Below are positions 4,384 through 19,535 of a DNA stretch of 38,754 nucleotides, piece by piece (positions within the stretch are counted from its first letter, which is position 1; each line of letters starts with the position of its first letter). The notes beneath the pieces were generated by a model. That model had not been told where the DNA came from. It did no database searches and was given only the letters and a program-made list of their open reading frames with translations. The position numbers and the translations under genes were made by a program. The DNA comes from Gammaproteobacteria bacterium (GTDB lineage Bacteria; Pseudomonadota; Gammaproteobacteria; Steroidobacterales; PWYM01), in NCBI GenBank assembly GCA_003567475.1, contig PWZL01000090.1, positions 1 to 38,754 of the forward strand. Reading direction: 5' to 3'.

Positions 4384-7300
4384 ATGAAGATCGCCGTGAA
4401 GATGGATACGCCGCAGAGTGCCGAGATTCCGTTCCAGGAGGCCTCGCTCGACATCTGGGAAAAGAAGTACCGCCTGACCACCAAGGACGGGACCCCGGTC
4501 GACCGCAGCATCCAGGACACCTACACGCGCGTCGCCCGTGCCCTGGCAGATGTCGAGGCCCCGGAGGTGCGGGAATACTGGTATGAACGGTTTGTCTGGG
4601 CGCTGCAGCGCGGGGCGATTCCCGCAGGCCGCATCACGTCGAACGCCGGGGCGCTGGCGCACAAGCCGGCGACCTCCACCATCAACTGCACCGTCTCGGG
4701 CACCATCGAAGACTCGATGGACGACATCCTCAACAAGGTCCACGAAGCTGGTCTCACCCTGAAGGCTGGCTGCGGCATCGGCTATGAATTCTCCACCCTG
4801 CGGCCGCGCGGGGCCTATGTTTCCGGTGCCGGCGCCTACACCTCCGGGCCGCTGTCGTTCATGGATATCTACGATCGCATGTGTTTTACCGTGTCCTCGG
4901 CCGGTGGCCGGCGTGGCGCGCAGATGGGCACCTTCGATGTGGGTCACCCGGACGCCCTGGATTTCGTTCGTGCCAAGCGGGAAGACGGCCGGCTTCGCCA
5001 GTTCAACCTCTCGCTGCTGATCACCGATGAATTCATGCAGGCGGTGCGCGATGACCAGCCCTGGCGCCTGGCCTTTCCGGTCACCGAGGCGGAGGTGCAG
5101 CAGGAGTCGCTGGATCTCGCTGACGAGGAGACGTTCGTCTGGCGTGAGTGGCCGGGTGAAGATCGGCGTTACGCCCGTAACGAGGTCGGCCTGGTGGCCT
5201 GCAGGGTGTACCGCACGGTGCCGGCGCGGCGGGTGTGGGACGTCATCATGTCCTCGACTTACGACTTCGCCGAGCCGGGCTTCGTGCTGATCGATCGGGT
5301 CAACGAAATGAACAACAACTGGTGGTGCGAGGACATCCGCGCCACCAATCCCTGCGTCACGGCTGACACCTGGGTGAATACCGGCGAGGGCCCGCGGCAG
5401 GTGGGTGCTCTGCTGGGTCGCCGCTTCAGCGTGCGGGTCGACGGTCGGTTGCACGACACCACCGACGCCGGTTTCTTCAAGACCGGGACCCGCGATGTGC
5501 TGCGGCTCGAGACTGCCGAGGGGCATGCCTTGCGGCTGACGCCGGATCACCGCGTGCGTCGCGTGACCGGCTTTGAAGCCGGTCGACCGGTGACCGCCTG
5601 GTGCGAGGCCGGTGATCTGCGCGCGGGCGACCGGGTGCTGCTGCAGGATCATCGCCATAACCCACACTGGGCGGGTGAGCTCTCCGAGGATGAAGGCTAT
5701 CTGCTCGGCATGCTCGTCAGTCGCGGGCGCGTCGAGCAGGAGCAGGCATGGCTGTCACTGTGGCGGACGCCGGTCGCGGCGAATGCGCCGTATGCCGGGA
5801 TTGCCGGCAGCGTGCGCGGCATCATGGCCCGGGTGACCGAGGCGGCCAAGGCGCTGACCGGTGGTGCCGGTTTTGCCGGATGGCAGGAAATGCCGGAGCG
5901 CGGTGAGTACCGGCTGGCGGTGCCCGGGCTCTCGGGCCTGGCACGTCGTCTGGGGCTCACAGCCGGGAGCGCTGAGGTGTCGCCTGCCGCCGAACGCACT
6001 TCCAGCCGATTCCATGCCGGTTTTCTGCGGGCCTGGTTCGACGTGCGTGGCCGTCTCGAGGAACGCGACGGGCAGCTGCAGCTCGTGCTGCTGGGTGGCA
6101 GCGACGCCGTGCCCGGCCATGACGTCCCGTCGCTGGCCGCGCTGCAGCGAATGCTCCAGCGCCTCGGGGTGATTGCGTCTGTCGACGCACGTGCCGGCAG
6201 ACTGACGCTTGGCGGCAGCAATCTCGCGGAGTTTGCACGGCGCATCGGCTTCGCCGACACCGAACGCCAACAACGACTCGAGGCCTGGCTGGCCGCAGCC
6301 GGCGAGATGCTCTATCAGGAGCGCTTCATCGCCCGGGTCAGTGCCCTGGTCCCGGACGGCATTGCAGAGGTTTATGACGTCCAGGTGCCAGGGGTGAACT
6401 GCTTCGATGGCAACGGTCTGCACGCCCACAACTGCGGCGAGCAGCCACTGCCGCCATACGGCTCCTGCCTGCTCGGCTCGGTCAACCTGACCAAATTCGT
6501 CATTGATCCGTTCACGGACAAGGCGCGCTTCGACTGGGAGCAGTATCGCGACGTGGTCCGTGTGTTTACGCGCATGTTGGATAACGTCGTCGAGATCAAC
6601 GGCCTGCCCCTCGGCCGCCAGCGCGAGGAAATCACCCGCAAGCGCCGCCATGGCATGGGTTTCCTCGGGCTGGGCTCGACCATCACGATGATGACCATGA
6701 AATACGGATCCCGTTCCTCGGTGGCCTTCACCCAGAACGTCGCGCGCGAGATGGCTCTGGCGGGCTGGGAGACGGCCCTCGAGCTTGCCCGCGAAAAGGG
6801 GCCGGCGCCGATCATGCTGGAGGAGTTCATGGTCACCCCGGAGATGCTGCGCAAGCGACCGGAGATGACCAGGGATGGCTATCAGCCGGGCGATCGCATT
6901 CCCGGACGCATCCTGCATTCACGCTACAGCCGCTACATGCAGCGGGTGGCGGACGCCGCGCCCGAGCTGGTCGATCAGCTCGCCGAGGTGGGGGCGCGTT
7001 TCACCCACCACAGCTCGATTGCACCAACCGGCACGATTTCCCTGTCGTTGGCCAACAATGCGTCCAATGGGATCGAGCCGAGCTTCGCGCACCACTACTT
7101 CCGCAACGTGATTCGCGAGGGTCGCAAGACCAAGGAACGCGTGGATGTCTTCTCCTTCGAGCTGCTGGCGTATCGGCATCTGATCAACCAGAAGGCCATG
7201 CCATTCTCCAACACTCCCGAGGAGCAGCTGCCGGAGTACTTCACGGTGGCCGACGACGTCACGCCGACCCAGCATGTCGATATCCAGGCGGCTGCTCAGC

Positions 7301-9741: not shown

Positions 9742-9752
9742 GCACTGCTCAG
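9738..9752. repeat. Palindrome holding both convergent stop codons
   Basis: CTGAGCACTGCTCAG is a perfect inverted repeat (6 bp stem, ACT loop, or 7 bp arms around one base). It contains the TGA of waaA on the plus strand and the TGA of tolC on the minus strand. There is no T-tract on either side, so it is at best a weak bidirectional terminator. Confidence 0.6.
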
Positions 9753-11134
9753 CGTTCCAGCCAGCTGTCCACCTCTTCGAGGTCCTGCAGGGCGAGGATG
9801 CCGGAGGAGCGCTTGAGCCGAAGGACGTTGACGATGTAGTCGTAGCGGCTGCGGGCGTAGGTGGTTTCCGCGTCGAACAGGCGCCGACGGGCATCGAGCA
9901 CGTCGACGGTGGTGCGGGTGCCGACTTCAAAGCCGGTTTCAGTCGCATCCAGCGCGGTGCGTGATGAAGTCACCGCCTGCTCGAGTGCGCGCACCCGGCT
10001 GATCTCCGTGACCACGCCCATGTAGGCATCCCGTGCCTGGCGTTCGGTCTGGCGGGTGACGCGATCCACGGCTTCGCGCGCCGCGCGGTGACGGAATACC
10101 GACTCGCGCACCTGCGAGGAGGTGCCGCCGCCGCTGAACAGCGGTACGCGCAGCTGAATCGAAATGCTGTCGGATTGTGAGTCGCTGTCGAAGGGTGTCG
10201 TCGGCCCGCTGTTGTTGGATCGATCCGCGCGCGTGGTGACATCCGTGCGGCTGGCGACGAGATCGAGCGTCGGGTAGTGACCGCTGCGGCGGATGCGCAC
10301 GTCGTCGCTGGCGATCTCCGAGCCGATCCGGGCAGCCACGAGTTCGAGATTCTGCGCCAGGGCGGTGTCCACCCACGCGCTTTCCGACGCCGGTGAGGGC
10401 GGCACCAGCGGGAGCTGGTCACGAGGGGCTGCCAGGTCGGTCACGTGCTCGCCGGTGAGCTCGCGCAGCGCCTCACGTGCCGATGCCAGGACCCGCTGAG
10501 CGGCGATTTCATCGGCTACGGAACGGTCGAACGCAGCCTGCGCTTCCTGGACGTCCGTGACTGCGATCAGCCCGACCTCAAAGCGTGTCTGCGCCTGCTC
10601 CAGCTGCCGCTCGATGGCCCGCTGCGTTGCCTGGGCCGCGCCGAGGGTGTCCTGCGCCGCGAGCACCTCGAAATAAGCTTCCGACACCCGCAGCATCAGG
10701 TCCTGCTTCGCGGCCTCGAACTCGGTTTCGGCCCGGGCGATGCGCTTGTCGCTCTGGCGGAAATTGATCCACTGGTCCCAGCGAAACAGCGTCTGGCGCA
10801 ACTCGAGCTGCCAGTTGGTGGTGCGCGCGTCCTGCTCGAACGCGGTCTCGATGGTCTGCAGTTCGTTTTCGATCGGATTGAAGTTGAGAAAACGCTGGCT
10901 GCCGTCGGAATCGCTCCAGCTGCGCGAGGCGGTGCCGGTGACCTGCGGCAGCAGCGCGGCGCGCGCCTGCGGCCGCGTCTCGAGTTCGGCCTGGAAAATG
11001 GCTTCCGCTTCGCGGATGCGCGGGTCGCTCTGCAGGGCACGCTGGTAAATGTCCAGCAGGCGCTCCTGGGCCTGGACAGGCCAGGCGAACACGATCAGGG
11101 CGATGGCGACAGGGGCAAGGAGCCGGGACAGCAT
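9749..11134 (-). CDS. tolC: TolC-family outer membrane channel protein
   Basis: A 461-residue outer-membrane efflux protein with a signal peptide cleaved after about 'AWPVQA'. Two homologous repeats of coiled-coil helices carry TolC signatures: 'LLDIYQRALQSDPRIREAEA' at the start of repeat 1, 'QQ/AQ..FEVGLIAVTDVQEAQAAFD' and, in repeat 2, 'ATETGFEVGTRTTVDVLDARRRLFDAE'. The latter motif (GxRTxxDVLdA) marks TolC proper rather than NodT-type lipoprotein channels, and there is no lipobox. It forms the exit duct for tripartite efflux pumps and type I secretion. It follows the rhodanese gene by 66 bp, with an AGGA Shine-Dalgarno. The RND adaptor and permease at 15-19 kb are possible partners. Confidence 0.95.
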   Translation of the reverse strand: MLSRLLAPVAIALIVFAWPVQAQERLLDIYQRALQSDPRIREAEAIFQAELETRPQARAALLPQVTGTASRSWSDSDGSQRFLNFNPIENELQTIETAFEQDARTTNWQLELRQTLFRWDQWINFRQSDKRIARAETEFEAAKQDLMLRVSEAYFEVLAAQDTLGAAQATQRAIERQLEQAQTRFEVGLIAVTDVQEAQAAFDRSVADEIAAQRVLASAREALRELTGEHVTDLAAPRDQLPLVPPSPASESAWVDTALAQNLELVAARIGSEIASDDVRIRRSGHYPTLDLVASRTDVTTRADRSNNSGPTTPFDSDSQSDSISIQLRVPLFSGGGTSSQVRESVFRHRAAREAVDRVTRQTERQARDAYMGVVTEISRVRALEQAVTSSRTALDATETGFEVGTRTTVDVLDARRRLFDAETTYARSRYDYIVNVLRLKRSSGILALQDLEEVDSWLER

Positions 11135-12191: not shown

Positions 12192-12468
12192 CGTGGTAAC
12201 TCCAGACACTGGATAAACGACCGCATAAGGGTACGGAGAACGCCGCACTGGTACAAGGCAGGGTGGTGCCTTCGGCCCTCTGCATTATGGTGAAAGCACA
12301 GCGCTCAACGGGCCACCTTCAGCTATTCTGCGTCGCTGGCCCGAATGCGTGCAGGCCCCGGTGTGGGGTGCTGCGGTATTCCGGGATACGCAGATCGCCG
12401 GTTCGCCGGCCAGACGGAACATTCTCCATGCCAGAGCGCCGGCGATCAGCAGCTGGGACAGGACCCGC

Positions 12469-14784
12469 ATGAGTGACGGGCCATTGCTCGCCTTGGCGGC
12501 GGGTGCCGGGCTTGTGGCCATCGGACTGGCCGTGGCCCTGGTCGTCTCGCGACGTCGCCGGCACGCCGATCTGGCGGCACTGGCGGCGGCGGCCGAGCGG
12601 GGGGTCGCAGGCGAGGGCGCGGCGATGCTGCGTCCGCGTGATGATCCCCCGTTCGATGCGGCAGTCGCGGCTTTGCAGCGGCTGTCCGCGCAGCGTCACC
12701 GCAGCGATGAGGCGGCACGTACCGCGGACTGGCGCACGCTCGAGCCCTGGCTCATGGCCCTGCCCGAAGTCGTGCTGGTGCACACCGAGGACAGCGTAGT
12801 CTTCGCCAACGAGGCGGCGAAAACTCTCCTTGGCGCAGACGTCGAGTCGCCGGTGGGTCGCGCGTTCATCGACCTGGTCCGGCCCGCGTGGCGGGCCTCC
12901 ACCCGGCGCCTGCTGGCCGAGCTGCCGGCGGCCAGCCCGGCGTCGGCCCCGCAGACACTCGAGGTGCAGCTCTCGGGCAGCGGCGATGAGCCGCTGACCG
13001 TGGAGTTGGCCTGCCAGCGGATCCTGCATGATGGGGCGCCGGCGGTGCTCACCGTGGCCCGCGACATCGGCTGGCGCAAAGGGCTCGATGCCGGGCTTCA
13101 GCGGGGCCGCCTGCAGGCCCGCCTGACGCTGGATTCGATCGGCGAGGGCGTGATCACGACGGATCCCGACGGACAGATCGTCTACATGAACGAGGCCGCC
13201 GAGCAGTTGCTTGGGCTTGCGCGCAGCGCCGCGGCCGGCCGCCGTTTGGTGGATCTGGTCGCGCTGATCGACGAGGTCGATCGCCAGTCGCTTGGGGATC
13301 CAGTGGCGCGCAGCCTCAGCGAGCGGCGGCGGGTCAATCTTGGCCGTCGCGCGGTGCTGTTGTCCAAGACCGGGACTCGCGAATGCTCCGTCGAACTGAC
13401 TGCCTCGCCATTGCGCGATCCCTCGGGTCAGCTCATCGGCTGCGTGGTGGTGTTGCACGACGTGACCGAGATGCGCGGCCTGACCCGCGAGATGTCCTAC
13501 CAGGCCAGCCATGACGCTCTGACCGGCCTGCTGAACCGCCACGAGTTTCAGCGGCGTCTGGAAGAGGCGCTGGTCTCGGCGCGCTCCGAGGACGGCTCGC
13601 ATGTGCTCTGCTATCTCGACCTCGACCGGTTCAAGGCGGTCAACGACACCTGCGGACATGTGGCGGGCGACAACATGCTGCGTGAGCTGGCCGGGCTGAT
13701 TCGTGAGGAGGTTCGTGACTCAGACTCGGTCGCCCGCCTTGGCGGCGACGAATTCGGCATGCTGCTGGTGGGCTGTCCGCTGGAGAAGGCCCGACAGATC
13801 GCCGACGATGTCTGCGCCGCGGTGGCCGGCTACCGCTTCGTCTGGCAGGACAAGATCTTCAACGTGGGTGTGTCGGTTGGACTGGTGCAGATCGGCAAGC
13901 AGAGCGGCACGCTGGAAGATGTCCTCTCGGCCGCGGACTCGGCCTGTTACGTGGCCAAGCAGCAAGGGCGCGGTCGCGTCCACGTCTACTCGTCGCGCGA
14001 CGAAGCGCTGGCCCGGCAGCGCGGCGAGATCCAGTGGCTGCAGAAGATCCAGACGGCGCTCAAGGAAGGCCGGTTCGAACTCTACACCCAGGCCATCATC
14101 GCCCTCGGCGGTCGCGTGGCGCAGGGGCCGGCGGTCGAGGTGCTGCTGCGTCTGCGGGACGACAGCGGCGCGGTGATTTCCCCCGGGCAGTTCATGGCCT
14201 CTGCCGAGCGCTACCACCTGATGACGCATATCGATCGCTGGGTGGTGCAGACCACGCTCGCGGCCATCGGCAGCGGCGCGCTGCGTCTGCCCGACCGGCG
14301 CAGCTGCAGCATCAACCTGTCCAGTCAGACGCTGGGCGACGAGGGGTTTCTGGAGTTCGTCGTGGAATGTCTCGACCACACGGGGGTTGCGCCTGAGCAG
14401 CTGTGCTTCGAGCTCCCGGAAATCTCCGTGATCAGCAATCTCGATCACGCCCGCCGTTTCATCAACGTGCTGCACGGTATGGGGTGTCGCTTCGCTCTGG
14501 ATGACTTCGGCAGCGGCATGGGCTCGTTTGCGAACCTGAAAAGCCTGTCCCTCGACTACCTGAAGATCGATGGTGCGTTCACCCGCGATCTCGACGAGGA
14601 CACCGTCCATCGCGCCATGATCAGCGCCGTCGTCGAGCTGGGGCGGACACTGCAGTTCCAGGTGGTGGCTGAGCAGCTGGAAGACCAGGAGGCCTTTGAA
14701 GCGGTGCGGCGGCTGGGCGTGGACTTCGCCCAGGGCTATATCGTCTCCCGGCCTGAGCCCATGGCCCGCGCTCCTGCAGCGTGA
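12469..14784 (+). CDS. Membrane-anchored PAS-GGDEF-EAL cyclic-di-GMP regulator
   Basis: I chose ATG 12469 (771 residues) since a GGACAGGA ribosome-binding site precedes it and a transmembrane helix (about residues 5-26) follows; an upstream in-frame start at 12349 adds 40 unlikely residues. Two PAS-like regions lie at about 100-205 and 220-335 ('LDSIGEGVITTDPDGQIVYMNEAAEQLLG'). The diguanylate cyclase domain has an intact GGDEF (425-429) and an RxxD inhibitory site (416-419). The phosphodiesterase domain has EVL (557-559) in place of EAL, ELPE for ExTE, DDFGSG (678-683), LKIDG and VAEQLE. Most metal and catalytic residues are kept, so it may be bifunctional. It stands alone, divergent from the PCMT-like gene. 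Confidence 0.93.
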   Translation: MSDGPLLALAAGAGLVAIGLAVALVVSRRRRHADLAALAAAAERGVAGEGAAMLRPRDDPPFDAAVAALQRLSAQRHRSDEAARTADWRTLEPWLMALPEVVLVHTEDSVVFANEAAKTLLGADVESPVGRAFIDLVRPAWRASTRRLLAELPAASPASAPQTLEVQLSGSGDEPLTVELACQRILHDGAPAVLTVARDIGWRKGLDAGLQRGRLQARLTLDSIGEGVITTDPDGQIVYMNEAAEQLLGLARSAAAGRRLVDLVALIDEVDRQSLGDPVARSLSERRRVNLGRRAVLLSKTGTRECSVELTASPLRDPSGQLIGCVVVLHDVTEMRGLTREMSYQASHDALTGLLNRHEFQRRLEEALVSARSEDGSHVLCYLDLDRFKAVNDTCGHVAGDNMLRELAGLIREEVRDSDSVARLGGDEFGMLLVGCPLEKARQIADDVCAAVAGYRFVWQDKIFNVGVSVGLVQIGKQSGTLEDVLSAADSACYVAKQQGRGRVHVYSSRDEALARQRGEIQWLQKIQTALKEGRFELYTQAIIALGGRVAQGPAVEVLLRLRDDSGAVISPGQFMASAERYHLMTHIDRWVVQTTLAAIGSGALRLPDRRSCSINLSSQTLGDEGFLEFVVECLDHTGVAPEQLCFELPEISVISNLDHARRFINVLHGMGCRFALDDFGSGMGSFANLKSLSLDYLKIDGAFTRDLDEDTVHRAMISAVVELGRTLQFQVVAEQLEDQEAFEAVRRLGVDFAQGYIVSRPEPMARAPAA

Positions 14785-14801: not shown

Positions 14802-15092
14802 TTAAAGCCGCTCCTCGACCGGCAGCACCACCGCCTCGGTACCGCGATGGGCCTCCCGGGCATCGCGAAACGCCCTGAGTGCCGTCAACAGCTCCGGGAG
14901 CGCCTCGTCTTCAACCAGTGCCTGTACGACGGTGAAATTGCCAGGGAACACCTGCGTACCGAAGTGCTTGCCACGCGGGTCGCGGCCGTGCACGCGCGGA
15001 TAGCGGGCGTAATTGCGGATGTCGTGCTGGTCCAGCAGCGCCTCGATCTCGTCCATGTATTCGAAGGGAAAGCTCAGGTGGACGAACTTCAT
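14802..15092 (-). CDS. Small PII-like transporter-associated protein (PG0541-like)
   Basis: A 96-residue protein with the beta-alpha-beta ferredoxin-like pattern of PII-superfamily proteins and the segment 'HFGTQVFPGNFTVVQALVED', resembling the PG0541 family of RND-transporter-associated proteins. It lacks the PII T-loop sequence and uridylylation Tyr. Its ATG overlaps the stop of the RND permease by 4 bases (ATGA), so translation is coupled. By analogy it may sense a ligand or regulate the pump. No direct functional evidence is visible. Confidence 0.75.
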   Translation of the reverse strand: MKFVHLSFPFEYMDEIEALLDQHDIRNYARYPRVHGRDPRGKHFGTQVFPGNFTVVQALVEDEALPELLTALRAFRDAREAHRGTEAVVLPVEERL

Positions 15093-18000
15093 GCGCCGGC
15101 TCCCTGCCGGGCGCCACCCGGCGGTGTTGTCATCCGCTTGCGCCAGCGGGCCTCGAATTGCCGCAGATAGGTGTAGAGCACCGGCACGACCACCAGCGTG
15201 AGCAGCGTCGAACTGAACAGGCCAGCGGCGACGGCCACGCCGAGCGGCGCCCTGACCTCACCGCCCGCGCCGAAGCCGAAGGCGATGGGCATCATGCCGA
15301 GGATGGTCGAGATCGCGGTCATCAACACCGGACGCAACCGGGTGGTGCCGGCCTCCAGTGCAGCTTCCATGGGGGCGCGTCCGCGGGCGACCAGCACGTT
15401 GGTGTAATCGATCAGCAGGATGCTGTTCTTGGTGACCAGGCCCATGAGCATGATGATGCCGATGAAGACGTAGACGCTGATCGGCATGCCGAGCAGCCAG
15501 AGCGATCCGAAGGCGCCCACCGTCGCCAGCGGCAGCGCAGCCATGATGGTCAGCGGCAGGGCGAAGGACTCGAATTGTGCCGCCAGCACCAGGTAGATGA
15601 AGACGATCGAGAGGGCAAAGGCGAGTGTCAGGTAGAAAAACGATTCAGCGAAATCCTCGGCCTGGCCAGAAAACGTGTACTCCACACCGATCGGCAGTTC
15701 ACGTTCGACGTACTGGGCCAGCACGTCGGTGGCATCGCCCAGTACCACCCCAGGCGGCGTGCTTGCGCTGATCGTGGCGGCGCGCATGCGATTGTAGCGG
15801 TTGATGGTGCTCGGGCCGACCGCTTCGGTAAGCGTCACCAGGTTGTCGATGGGCACCAGGCCCTCGCCGTTTCGCAGATAAATATTGCGGAGCACCTCGG
15901 GGGTCAGGCTGCCGCGACCGGCGACATCCAGAATCACGTCGTAGCGCTTGGCGTCGCGCTCGACCTGCGAGATCGGCCCCTCCGCCATCAGGTAGCGCAG
16001 GGTGTCGGCGACCTGCATGGCCGTGAGGCCGGCTTCGCTGATGCGGTCGCGGTCGAGATCGACCTGGATTTCCGGCGTGTTGAAGCGCAGGTTGGTGCGC
16101 ACGCCGACGAACTTGTCGCGACGTTCGCCCATCCAGGTCATCAACTGGTCCTGGGCGGTGCCGAGCACCTCGAGGTCCGGGTGCTGCAGGATCAGTTCAA
16201 TCGGCTGGCCACCGATGCCGCCTGGTCCGAACTCGAATACGAACGCCCGGCCGTCGGGAATGCGCGCCAGCCGATCGCGCATATCCTGCATGATCTCGAC
16301 CTGGTGGCGCTCGCGATCTTGCCGGGGTGTCAGGGACAGAAAGACCACCCCGGTGTTGGGACTGCCCGGGCCGCCGGCGCCCAGTCCGATGCCGACAAAC
16401 TGGTGCTGGACCTCGGGCATCTCCGCGAGCATGGCCTCGATGCGGGCGGCGAACCGGTCGGTTTCCTGCAGGGTGGCACCTTCCGGGGTTTCGAAGCTGA
16501 TGAGAAAGCCCGCCCGGTCGGGCGAGGGTGCGAATTCCGCGGGGCTGTCGATGAGCGCAGCGATGCCGACCACGAAGGCGCCGGCACCGATGGCGACCGT
16601 CAGGAGTCGACGACGCAGGGCGGCCGCGAGCAGGCGCGTGTAGCCGCGCTCCAGTTGTGCGAAGCGGCGTTCAGACCAGGCGAACAGCCCGCTCTGGGGC
16701 GGATTGCGGTCGAGCAGCAGCGCGCACAGCATCGGCGTCAGCGTGAGCGCCACGAAGGTCGAGGCGAACACGGTGGCGGTCACGGTAATGCCGAACTCGA
16801 GGAAAAACTGGCCGATGATGCCTCCCGAAAAGGCCACCGGCAGAAAGACCGCCGCCAGGGCCAGCGAGTTGGCGATGTTCGGGAACGCGACTTCGGTGGT
16901 GCCGATGCGCGCGGCAGGCTCGCGCTCCGCGCCTTCCTCACGGTGGCGCTGGGTGCGCTCGAGCACCACGATGGCATCGTCGACCACGATGCCCACCACC
17001 AGGATCAGCCCGAGCATGGTGACCTGGTTGATCGAGAAGCCCAGCGCGTTGATGACCGCGAATCCCGCCAGCAGCGCCGCAGGGATGGCCACGGCGGCCA
17101 CCAGAGTCCCCTTGAAGGTTCGCAGGAATATCAGCACCACCAGGATGACCAGGGTGGTGGCAAGGAAGATGGTGGCGATCAGATCGCGGATGCTTTCTTC
17201 GACGAACTCGGTATCGTCGCTGGAGATGGTGTAGCGCAGGCCCGCGGGGAACTCCGGACCAATCACCTCGAGTGCGTCGCGCACGGCGCGCGACATCGCC
17301 ACGGCGTTGGCGCCGGATTGCTTGATGATGCCCATGCCGACGGTCGGCTCGCCGGCAAACCGCGCGACCTGCCGGTCGTTCTGCACGTCATCGATCGCCT
17401 CGCCGACATCACTGATTCGCACGGGTGCGCCGTTGACGGTGGTGATCACCAGGGTGTTGATCGGGCCGGCATCCGAGAACTGACCACGGGTGTTGATGCG
17501 GAATTCCCGGGCTGCGCCCTGGACGCGGCCCGTGGGAATGCTGATGTTGTTGGCCTGGATGGTGTTGACCACATCCTGCACGGTCAGCTGATGGGCCGCC
17601 AGGCGCTCTGGATCGAGCCGCACCCGCGCGGCATAGCGGCGGGCGCCGCCGACGATGATCTGACCGACGCCCGGCAGGCTCTCGAGTCGGGCCTTGAGCA
17701 CATCTTCGGTGTAGCGGGTGAGCTGGACGCGGTCCCAGCGGTCGTCGCCCTGAATGGCCACCCACATGATGGGTTGCGCATCAAGGTCGAGTTTGCGGAC
17801 GATCGGCGCCTCGGTGTCGCGTGGCAGGCGCCGGCGCACGCGATCCACGGCATCGCGGACGTCTTGGGTGGCCAGCTCCAGATCCCGCGAGAGGTCGAAC
17901 ACCACCACGATGCTGCCGACGTCCTGCCGCGCTTCGGAGCGCAGCTGGCGGATGCCTTCGATGGTGTTGATCTCCTCCTCGATGATGTCGATGATCTCGC

Positions 18001-18178
18001 TTTCGATCACCTCCGGGGCGGCGCCGGGCAGGGCGACGTTCACGCTGACCACGGGAAATTCCACGTCCGGGTTTTCCTGGACCGGCATCTGCAGATACCC
18101 GTAGCCGCCGAAGATGGCCAGCACAAGGAAGATCACCGTCGTGAAGACGGGGCGCTTGATGCAGAAATTCCAGATCAT
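15089..18178 (-). CDS. RND efflux permease (AcrB/HAE1 family)
   Basis: A 1029-residue inner-membrane proton antiporter. It starts with the usual 'FCIKRPVFTTVIFLVLAIFG' TM1, has two periplasmic porter loops and twelve predicted membrane helices. The proton-relay residues are present: the Asp pair in TM4 'GIVVDDAIVVLER' and the Lys in TM10 'LMGLVTKNSILLIDYTN', so it should be functional. The profile fits drug/hydrophobic-compound exporters rather than heavy-metal CusA types, which carry extra Met residues. It follows the adaptor by 15 bp and overlaps the PII-like gene. No outer-membrane channel is encoded in this operon; the TolC at 9.7-11.1 kb could serve. Confidence 0.95.
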   Translation of the reverse strand: MIWNFCIKRPVFTTVIFLVLAIFGGYGYLQMPVQENPDVEFPVVSVNVALPGAAPEVIESEIIDIIEEEINTIEGIRQLRSEARQDVGSIVVVFDLSRDLELATQDVRDAVDRVRRRLPRDTEAPIVRKLDLDAQPIMWVAIQGDDRWDRVQLTRYTEDVLKARLESLPGVGQIIVGGARRYAARVRLDPERLAAHQLTVQDVVNTIQANNISIPTGRVQGAAREFRINTRGQFSDAGPINTLVITTVNGAPVRISDVGEAIDDVQNDRQVARFAGEPTVGMGIIKQSGANAVAMSRAVRDALEVIGPEFPAGLRYTISSDDTEFVEESIRDLIATIFLATTLVILVVLIFLRTFKGTLVAAVAIPAALLAGFAVINALGFSINQVTMLGLILVVGIVVDDAIVVLERTQRHREEGAEREPAARIGTTEVAFPNIANSLALAAVFLPVAFSGGIIGQFFLEFGITVTATVFASTFVALTLTPMLCALLLDRNPPQSGLFAWSERRFAQLERGYTRLLAAALRRRLLTVAIGAGAFVVGIAALIDSPAEFAPSPDRAGFLISFETPEGATLQETDRFAARIEAMLAEMPEVQHQFVGIGLGAGGPGSPNTGVVFLSLTPRQDRERHQVEIMQDMRDRLARIPDGRAFVFEFGPGGIGGQPIELILQHPDLEVLGTAQDQLMTWMGERRDKFVGVRTNLRFNTPEIQVDLDRDRISEAGLTAMQVADTLRYLMAEGPISQVERDAKRYDVILDVAGRGSLTPEVLRNIYLRNGEGLVPIDNLVTLTEAVGPSTINRYNRMRAATISASTPPGVVLGDATDVLAQYVERELPIGVEYTFSGQAEDFAESFFYLTLAFALSIVFIYLVLAAQFESFALPLTIMAALPLATVGAFGSLWLLGMPISVYVFIGIIMLMGLVTKNSILLIDYTNVLVARGRAPMEAALEAGTTRLRPVLMTAISTILGMMPIAFGFGAGGEVRAPLGVAVAAGLFSSTLLTLVVVPVLYTYLRQFEARWRKRMTTPPGGARQGAGA

Positions 18179-18193: not shown

Positions 18194-19339
18194 TCAGCGG
18201 GCGCCGGCGGACGGGCCGCCGCTGACGACTTCGACCCGCGTGCCGTCACTGACGCGCTGATGGCCGAGGCGGATCACCTCCTCGCCAGCCTCCAGCCCTT
18301 CGAGAATGCTGACCACACCGTTATCGCGCAGGCCCGTGCGCACTTCACGACGCGAGGCCTGACCCGCCTCGACGACGAAGACGATAAAGCCGTCGCGGGT
18401 ACCGATCAGGGCCTCCTCGGGCAGCACCGGCAGGTCGTCCCGGCGCTCGATGATGACGCGTGCCGTGGCGAAACCGCCCGGACGCAGCCGCCCGTCGGGA
18501 TTGGCGATGGTGGCGCGCAGACTCACGGTGCGGCTGCGCTCGTCCACGCTGGGGCTGATCACATCGAGCTCTGCAGCGAACCGTTCGCCGGGGAAACTCG
18601 CGACCGAGAGTTCCACCTCATCCTCCAGCGAGACCCGGCCGGCATACCGCTCGGGGATGCTGAAGCTCAGGTGCAGGGGGTCGGCGCGGTACAGCGTCGC
18701 GATCCGCCGGCCCGCTTCCACGAACGCCCCCTCGTCGACCTGCTGCTCGGAGATCTCGCCGGCGAACGGCGCGCGCAGCGTCAGCTCGGCGATCTGCTCA
18801 CGCAGGGCCGCAATATCGGCTTCGAGGCCGCGGACATCCGCTTCGGCGGCCTGCATGTCAGTCAAGGCCTGTTCGTAGTCGCCTTCGGAAATCTGGCGCT
18901 GGGCGCGCAGGGTCTCCGCCCGAGCGTGAACCCGCGCGGCATTGCGGGCCCGGCTGGTGGCTGCCGCCAGCGCGGCTTCGCGCGAATTCAGCTGTTCGCG
19001 CAGACGCCCGTCCCGCAGTTCCACCAGCACCTGGCCCGCCTCGACGCGGCCCCCCTCACGGAAGCCCAGCAGGGTGATCCGGCCGCCCACCTCGGGGCTG
19101 ATGTCGATTTCCGCGCTGGCCCGCAGAGTGCCCACACCGCGGACCGCCTCGGTGATGACCCGCGTTTCGGCGCGCACCGTTTCCACCACGGCGGGCGGCG
19201 GCGCCCCATTCTGCGTGGGCTCGCCGCCACCCAGCCAGGCGCGAGCCACGATGACGGCAACAACCAGACCCGCGACGAGCGCAAGAATCAGGGGCCAACG
19301 GCGAGCGTTGGGTGTGGAGGTGTGGTGCTGGTTCGGCAT
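18194..19339 (-). CDS. RND efflux periplasmic adaptor (membrane fusion protein)
   Basis: I chose ATG 19339 (381 residues) because the membrane anchor 'RWPLILALVAGLVVAVIVARAWLGG' follows closely; the frame could extend to 19402. The architecture is standard: lipoyl half-motif ('VEAGQVLVELRDGRLREQL'), a coiled-coil hairpin (about residues 95-165, rich in Ala/Glu/Arg), second lipoyl half ('LRAPFAGEISEQQVDEGAFVEAG'), beta-barrel and membrane-proximal domains. It links the permease to an outer-membrane channel. It is uncleaved and anchored, with no lipobox Cys. First gene of the efflux operon; a run of eight G on the coding strand (19385-19392) lies in its upstream region. Confidence 0.93.
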   Translation of the reverse strand: MPNQHHTSTPNARRWPLILALVAGLVVAVIVARAWLGGGEPTQNGAPPPAVVETVRAETRVITEAVRGVGTLRASAEIDISPEVGGRITLLGFREGGRVEAGQVLVELRDGRLREQLNSREAALAAATSRARNAARVHARAETLRAQRQISEGDYEQALTDMQAAEADVRGLEADIAALREQIAELTLRAPFAGEISEQQVDEGAFVEAGRRIATLYRADPLHLSFSIPERYAGRVSLEDEVELSVASFPGERFAAELDVISPSVDERSRTVSLRATIANPDGRLRPGGFATARVIIERRDDLPVLPEEALIGTRDGFIVFVVEAGQASRREVRTGLRDNGVVSILEGLEAGEEVIRLGHQRVSDGTRVEVVSGGPSAGAR

Positions 19340-19384
19340 GCGTGACCTGCAAAGAATTAAGAGCGGCCGGAGACCGGCTGCGAA

Positions 19385-19392
19385 CCCCCCCC
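19385..19392 (-). repeat. Eight-base G tract upstream of the RND operon
   Basis: A homopolymer of 8 C on the plus strand (8 G on the coding strand) lies about 46 bp before the adaptor ATG. Such tracts can slip during replication. No clear promoter hexamers could be placed around it. Confidence 0.6.
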
Positions 19393-19535
19393 GGACCAAC
19401 ATACGCGTCCAGACAGGGTTGGGACGTCACGGGGATTGACAATTCTACCGCCGGGGCCGCGTGCCGGTCACGGACGCCTGCTGGATACGCGATCGCGGCC
19501 AGGCTGGATTCAGCCCGGCGACGTCCGTTCTCAGG

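Follow-up and report, generated by a model that had tools for sequence, protein, structure and literature searches.

A central question raised by this locus is whether a small protein that is encoded immediately behind the permease of an RND efflux pump also acts on this pump and, if so, in which capacity. Discussions of how RND efflux is controlled usually centre on gene expression, and AcrZ is a known one-helix modulator. The gene studied here lies in what we call the window, i.e. the entire analysed stretch of 38,754 nucleotides, whose source contig is part of a 3.06 Mb draft genome. Its product belongs to the PG0541 family, whose association with transporters is already known, NCBIfam naming the family 'transporter-associated'; the founding member, PG0541 of Porphyromonas gingivalis, presumably adjoins the XepCAB pump. 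As far as its texts were accessible, open-licence PubMed Central yielded no study of the function, fold or partner of this family. PG0541 is listed as conserved hypothetical or hypothetical in the accessible parts of PMC1887533 and PMC4493947, its appearance in the available part of PMC12932480 is a chance string, and the excerpts at hand of PMC3973600 and PMC8277102 revealed no link between PII and RND proteins. What the present analysis contributes is the PII fold, a linkage that holds in both directions, its spread over several lineages of permeases and the comparable case of DUF3240.

The small gene and its position

The small gene (14802..15092, minus strand) encodes a PG0541-family PII-fold protein of 96 amino acids, as assigned from its NF045581 score, an AlphaFold2 (AF2) model and a structural match to CPII. 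The ATG of the small gene (15092-15090) and the TGA of the RND permease, also on the minus strand, have four bases in common, ATGA (15089..15092), and AGGGAG, a candidate ribosome-binding site, can be read on the minus strand seven bases ahead of the ATG (15100..15105). Reading frame and overlap thus exist as given in the preliminary description, to which sequence and ORF list add the minus strand as a correction. Judging from the four-base overlap, translation of the small gene may be coupled to that of the permease. The overlap is, however, ruled out as a family hallmark: among the best 80 of 329 relatives, an overlap of four bases is present in seven loci, including one (L027) with a mere permease remnant. 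In 73 of these best 80 loci, the permease ends within 200 bases of the small gene.

The protein scores above the NF045581 cut-off in all five scanned genomes of its genus, and Ka/Ks of its gene is 0.04-0.27 for the nine genus pairs with finite Ks, the tenth pair (G300-G301), with saturated synonymous sites, lying outside the range given. The small gene is under purifying selection. Because of the family score, the presence in five genomes and the Ka/Ks values, we regard it as a real gene; a chance ORF is ruled out on the same grounds.

On the opposite strand, a convergent PAS-GGDEF-EAL gene (12349-14784, plus strand) ends 17 bases from the stop of the small gene, and in two genus-mates (L019, L020) the ends of the two genes overlap by four bases. 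That an adjoining GGDEF-EAL gene might point to a nucleotide ligand is a remark only.

Fold and family

The NCBIfam profile NF045581 (PG0541_fam) matches the small protein with 64.3 bits against a curated cut-off of 45, residues 2-90 aligning to positions 1-90 of the 91 in the profile, and the gene lies in a transporter operon with permease and adaptor upstream. With this score above the curated cut-off, the PG0541 label proposed earlier is right. The AF2 model, calculated from a 53-row alignment (50 of the best 80 of 329 loci plus three genus proteins), has a mean pLDDT of 89.7 and predicts strand 2-9, helix 10-22, strand 28-34, a loop, strand 53-60, helices 65-78 and 80-84 and strand 86-91; this order, i.e. 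strand-helix-strand-loop-strand-helix-strand, is that of the beta-alpha-beta ferredoxin-like PII fold. The top Foldseek match of the model is CPII (5d4p, E 1.4e-5), and all among the 50 matches listed are PII or PII-like by title, with the Thermus TT1020 entries taken by us to be PII. In VIA-align, CPII again leads (5drk, Z 13.4, rmsd 1.5 Å over 84 aligned residues, 17% identity), followed by PotN (Z 12.2), DUF3240 (11.7), E. coli GlnK (11.3) and SbtB (11.3).

At the sequence level, 40 of the 53 aligned members are matched by Pfam P-II (PF00543) with E up to 1, the lowest value being 2e-8; the window protein itself gave no match to PF00543 at E up to 1 and no Pfam match of note. A search of the PDB with the family profile retrieved CPII and GlnK chains at E 5e-4 to 3e-3, CPII being the best match, in the false company of two designed repeat proteins (2e-3 and 4e-3). 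Taken together, predicted fold and sequence profile support the suggested PII-like identity well. The uridylylation motif and the C-terminal signature, in the form of patterns that we take to be the canonical GlnB/GlnK signatures, were each found in 0 of 98 rows, which represent about 84 different genes (13 rows are second reads of the same genes and one, L148, is in the wrong frame). Both patterns are matched by E. coli GlnK as positive control, and both are also absent from 27 PII-like hits below the family cut-off (see below). As judged from model and sequence, the small protein is a member of the PII superfamily by fold and a non-canonical PII. With the canonical motifs absent, nucleotide binding by the PG0541 family is therefore not to be assumed. 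The window's branch of the family is distinct, with 25-31% identity to the three Bacteroidota proteins compared.

The equivalent of the T-loop, residues 35-52 (14937..14990, minus strand), is modelled with low confidence, residues 48-50 having a pLDDT under 50, and contains the conserved residues G36, H43 and P50. In the first 53-row alignment, conservation of H43, G45 and P50 was partly imposed by the search motif, and our statement on conservation therefore rests on 24 sequences found by profile, i.e. 19 of the 22 survey members described below plus five genus members; L141 and L142, which yielded no reading frame, and L148, read in a wrong one, were left out. Among these 24, G36 and P50 are invariant and H43 is kept in 23, with Arg in the remaining one, and the position of G45 is occupied by G in 19 and by D in five; a second invariant His or any invariant Cys was not seen in this alignment. 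Averaged over all columns, conservation of the T-loop does not exceed that of the strands (mean entropy 1.45 versus 1.42 to 1.75).

The permease and its likely operon

The gene upstream (15089..18178, minus strand) encodes an RND permease of 1029 amino acids of the multidrug (HAE) type. PF00873 (ACR_tran) covers it at full length (920.6 bits, residues 3-1005), TIGR00915 scores 684 bits versus 377 with the CusA/CzcA model, and all residues matching AcrB D407, D408, K940, R971 and T978, which we take as the reference positions for the proton relay, are in place. Within the NCBIfam multidrug RND subfamilies, the permease stays below the cut-offs of NF033617 (899 of 1250), NF000282 (730 of 1250) and TIGR00915 (684 of 940). 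Of the drug efflux assumed in the preliminary description, the multidrug type is thus borne out by sequence; 'drug' as the actual substrate is a guess.

An RND periplasmic adaptor, i.e. a membrane fusion protein (18194..19402, minus strand; TIGR01730 265.2 bits, cut-off 94.9), is encoded by the first gene of the likely operon. A TolC-family outer membrane protein (9749..11134, minus strand; TIGR01844 341 bits, cut-off 225) is encoded 3.7 kb from the operon on the same strand and is a possible third component of the pump; a TolC-family gene is also found near the operon in three genus-mates (L018-L020).

Linkage between small protein and permease in both directions

A motif-based scan of genome contigs yielded 329 relatives, of which the best 80 were kept. 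In 75 of these best 80 loci, the L027 remnant included, a permease match precedes the small gene; three (L041, L073, L087) have no permease upstream, L073 with 816 bases of upstream DNA, and two (L054, L061), with less than 190 bases upstream, are too short for the presence of a permease to be judged. A motif-free, profile-based survey of 296 Bacteroidota and 149 Planctomycetota genomes found family members above the cut-off in 16 and seven genomes, respectively, each number including the centre genome, and one Planctomycetota genome contains two copies. With the two centre genomes left out, a permease lies directly upstream on the same strand in 21 of 22 survey members (Bacteroidota 15 of 15, Planctomycetota six of seven, the exception being L139), whereas 0 of 27 sub-cut-off hits, which we read as other PII-like proteins, have an RND match within their 1.5 kb flanks. 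The neighbourhood survey, which had been named beforehand as a possible refutation of a stable RND link, thus came out in its favour.

In the window's own phylum the family is rare, with one of 299 genomes above the cut-off, i.e. that of the window. According to record titles, it occurs in common gut bacteria such as Bacteroides, Parabacteroides and Alistipes; records of Bacteroides finegoldii and Parabacteroides distasonis contain an operon of the order tetR-tolC-adaptor-permease, followed by the PG0541-family gene.

In the reverse direction, with scoring limited to a few top candidates from each genome, permeases of at least 70% identity were found among 196 genomes of the order only in the five genus members, the next best having 39%. 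Of these genomes, 147 were scanned both ways: the same five contain permease (70-100%) and protein, and 142 contain neither (the other 49 were scanned for the permease alone and stand outside this two-way count). Likewise, relatives of the Bacteroides pyogenes (B-type) permease with 44-100% identity occur in five of 148 Bacteroidota genomes (next 36%), and all five also have a PG0541-family protein; in two more of these 148 genomes (G468, G493), the small gene follows a permease that is less closely related. The link with RND permeases is genuine and holds in both directions.

The PG0541-family genes without an adjacent RND permease (L041, L073 and L087 in Bacteroidota, L139 in Planctomycetota) are candidates for a stand-alone role or for recent loss of the pump. 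At L027 (1139-6291, Phycisphaerae), a short adaptor fragment, a minus-strand ORF of 1338 amino acids and a permease remnant of about 55 amino acids accompany an intact PG0541-family gene, and here the pump seems to have been lost and the small gene retained.

Evolution of the linked permeases

In a tree of 60 rows, the linked permeases form three clades with unlinked ones between them, and the unlinked label requires at least three changes. Clade 1, with the window, comprises, by record titles, Gammaproteobacteria, Desulfonatronovibrio and relatives, and Planctomycetaceae; the other two are a Bacteroidota clade with three Planctomycetota permeases beside it and a second Bacteroidota type. On a quick LG+G4 tree of 53 rows, from which seven long-branched unlinked permeases had been dropped, an AU test rejects a single clade of linked permeases (p 1.2e-58); the starred branches of this tree force at least two changes. 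Both trees include a subset of the linked permeases and a thin sample of unlinked ones (21 from four genomes plus four E. coli proteins).

Within each of the three clades, small-protein distances correlate with permease distances (r 0.86 for 11 pairs, 0.94 for seven and 0.94 for 57), with 0, 3 and 0 of 5000 permutations, respectively, reaching the observed r; this test was run without L018, L019, L021-L024 and permeases of 950 residues or less. Such co-divergence would also arise from linked inheritance alone. Nine residues are shared by the linked permease groups and seldom found in the others, and a topology that we assume for the permease places four of them in cytoplasmic loops; as a hint at contacts with the small protein, these residues are suggestive at best and too few to build on.

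In three linked permeases of Planctomycetota (L186, L187, L189), the residues equivalent to AcrB D408 and K940 are both Asn, and the proton relay of these permeases may differ. At L189, a second RND permease stretch (5004-6200) upstream of the adaptor suggests a two-permease operon.

As to habitat, six of the 15 loci in the window's clade bear dataset prefixes of the Kulunda soda lakes, as these prefixes are given in the accessible part of PMC6146748. Three more have the CSSed prefix from the same lake. Two further ones we take to be soda-lake samples. This hints at a horizontal spread of the operon among haloalkaliphiles of several phyla (L024-L038), a remark only, with no baseline to compare it with.

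A second PII-fold family behind RND permeases

DUF3240 (PF11582) was searched in 150 genomes of the window's phylum, with 21 hits in 20 genomes (L197-L217) and no member in the window's genome. Of the 17 hits with at least 40 bits, 13 immediately follow an RND permease; none of the four weaker hits does. All 13 DUF3240-linked permeases score far higher with E. coli CusA than with AcrB, MdtB or the permease of the window, and all 21 permease pieces upstream of PG0541-family genes score higher with E. coli MdtB than with CusA. It thus seems that PII-fold proteins became associated with RND pumps on more than one occasion.

Discussion

Overall, a fold typical of a sensor family and the company of a pump in several bacterial phyla lead us to propose that the small protein is probably a built-in regulator of its RND pump, by analogy with PII proteins at other transporters. 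The protein would serve the permease encoded immediately upstream as a dedicated partner in the cytoplasm and, as a homotrimer, could sit under the homotrimeric pump along a shared three-fold axis. Contacts with cytoplasmic loops would be made by the flexible T-loop and its conserved G36/H43/P50 set, and whether the pump is held back or released would depend on a small ligand bound between the subunits. Trimer, contact, ligand and direction of the effect are what we infer here, and we consider a trimeric partner that senses a ligand and gates a trimeric pump to be reasonably probable; the effect would presumably be inhibition rather than activation. According to the part of a review available to us, PII proteins acting on transporters seem restricted to trimeric ones (PMC10710835). 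AcrB-like RND permeases are likewise trimeric, and we therefore favour a trimeric cap. As for the ligand, bicarbonate and adenine nucleotides are reasonable candidates to start from, given the similarity to CPII, but no more than that.

Other roles have to be weighed against that of a regulator. A CutA-like cytoplasmic binder of metals or small molecules could serve the substrate side, capturing or buffering what is to be exported without any gating; the T-loop histidine kept in 23 of 24 profile-found members, the PII-fold DUF3240 behind CusA-like pumps and the metal sensing proposed, in the accessible part of PMC7726332, for PII-NG near CzcABC would all suit such an accessory. It is nevertheless unlikely, since all 21 linked permease pieces favour MdtB over CusA, and the 24 sequences include one with Arg in place of H43 and have neither a second invariant His nor an invariant Cys.

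Tight gene order and co-divergence would suit any obligate subunit, including a factor that assists folding of the permease or upkeep of its trimer without any signalling, and the missing canonical PII ligand motifs point the same way; yet the protein has the fold of a classical sensor, with a ligand-binding PII protein as its nearest match, and four genomes contain 21 full-length RND permeases that lack such a partner, which makes a pure assembly or stability factor quite improbable. Finally, the protein might regulate something else altogether and travel with the pump genes, as the three Bacteroidota loci and the one Planctomycetota locus without adjacent permease could indicate, but two-way co-occurrence in two phyla, with paired permeases that do not form one clade, leaves very little room for mere hitch-hiking.

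If the small protein is a regulator of its pump, the cell could switch RND pumps within seconds by means of a trimer that senses a ligand at their cytoplasmic face, and the PII principle would extend from uptake to efflux. In a wider form, which we put forward tentatively and with some doubt, RND pumps would repeatedly have been fitted with dedicated sensors, cytoplasmic PII-fold trimers that dock on the three-fold axis and switch the pump in response to a metabolite, a nucleotide or a metal: PG0541-family proteins in at least two lineages of the multidrug type, DUF3240 at CusA-like and PII-NG at Czc pumps. If true, this would amount to a general, fast and post-translational layer of efflux control beside AcrZ-like modulators. 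With family members in common gut bacteria, the question is directly testable.

Among known systems, the NF045581 family is the same as the window protein by curated score, its name stating an association alone. CPII of Thiomonas intermedia (5d4l-5ds7) provides the closest solved fold and the best PDB profile match; it binds ADP and bicarbonate and is encoded in a carboxysome context, but its identity to the small protein is 17%, and its entries are, by title, complexes with ADP, AMP or bicarbonate. DUF3240 (3ce8) shares with the small protein the PII-like fold (Z 11.7) and the position directly behind an RND permease, but is a separate Pfam family and accompanies CusA-like permeases. A link between PII proteins and RND pumps, earlier called little described, is already in print for PII-NG, which, in the part of the paper at hand, is encoded with CzcABC in Geobacter (GSU2134-2137) and thus, like the window protein, with an RND pump (PMC7726332). 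PII-NG, however, is a PF00543 protein that starts a heavy-metal operon, whereas the window protein, without PF00543 match or canonical motifs, follows a multidrug-type permease. A precedent for our proposal is offered by GlnK-AmtB and SbtB-SbtA, in which, according to the available part of PMC10710835, a PII-fold trimer binds and controls a trimeric transporter; these systems, in contrast to that of the window, belong to other transporter families and serve uptake rather than efflux.
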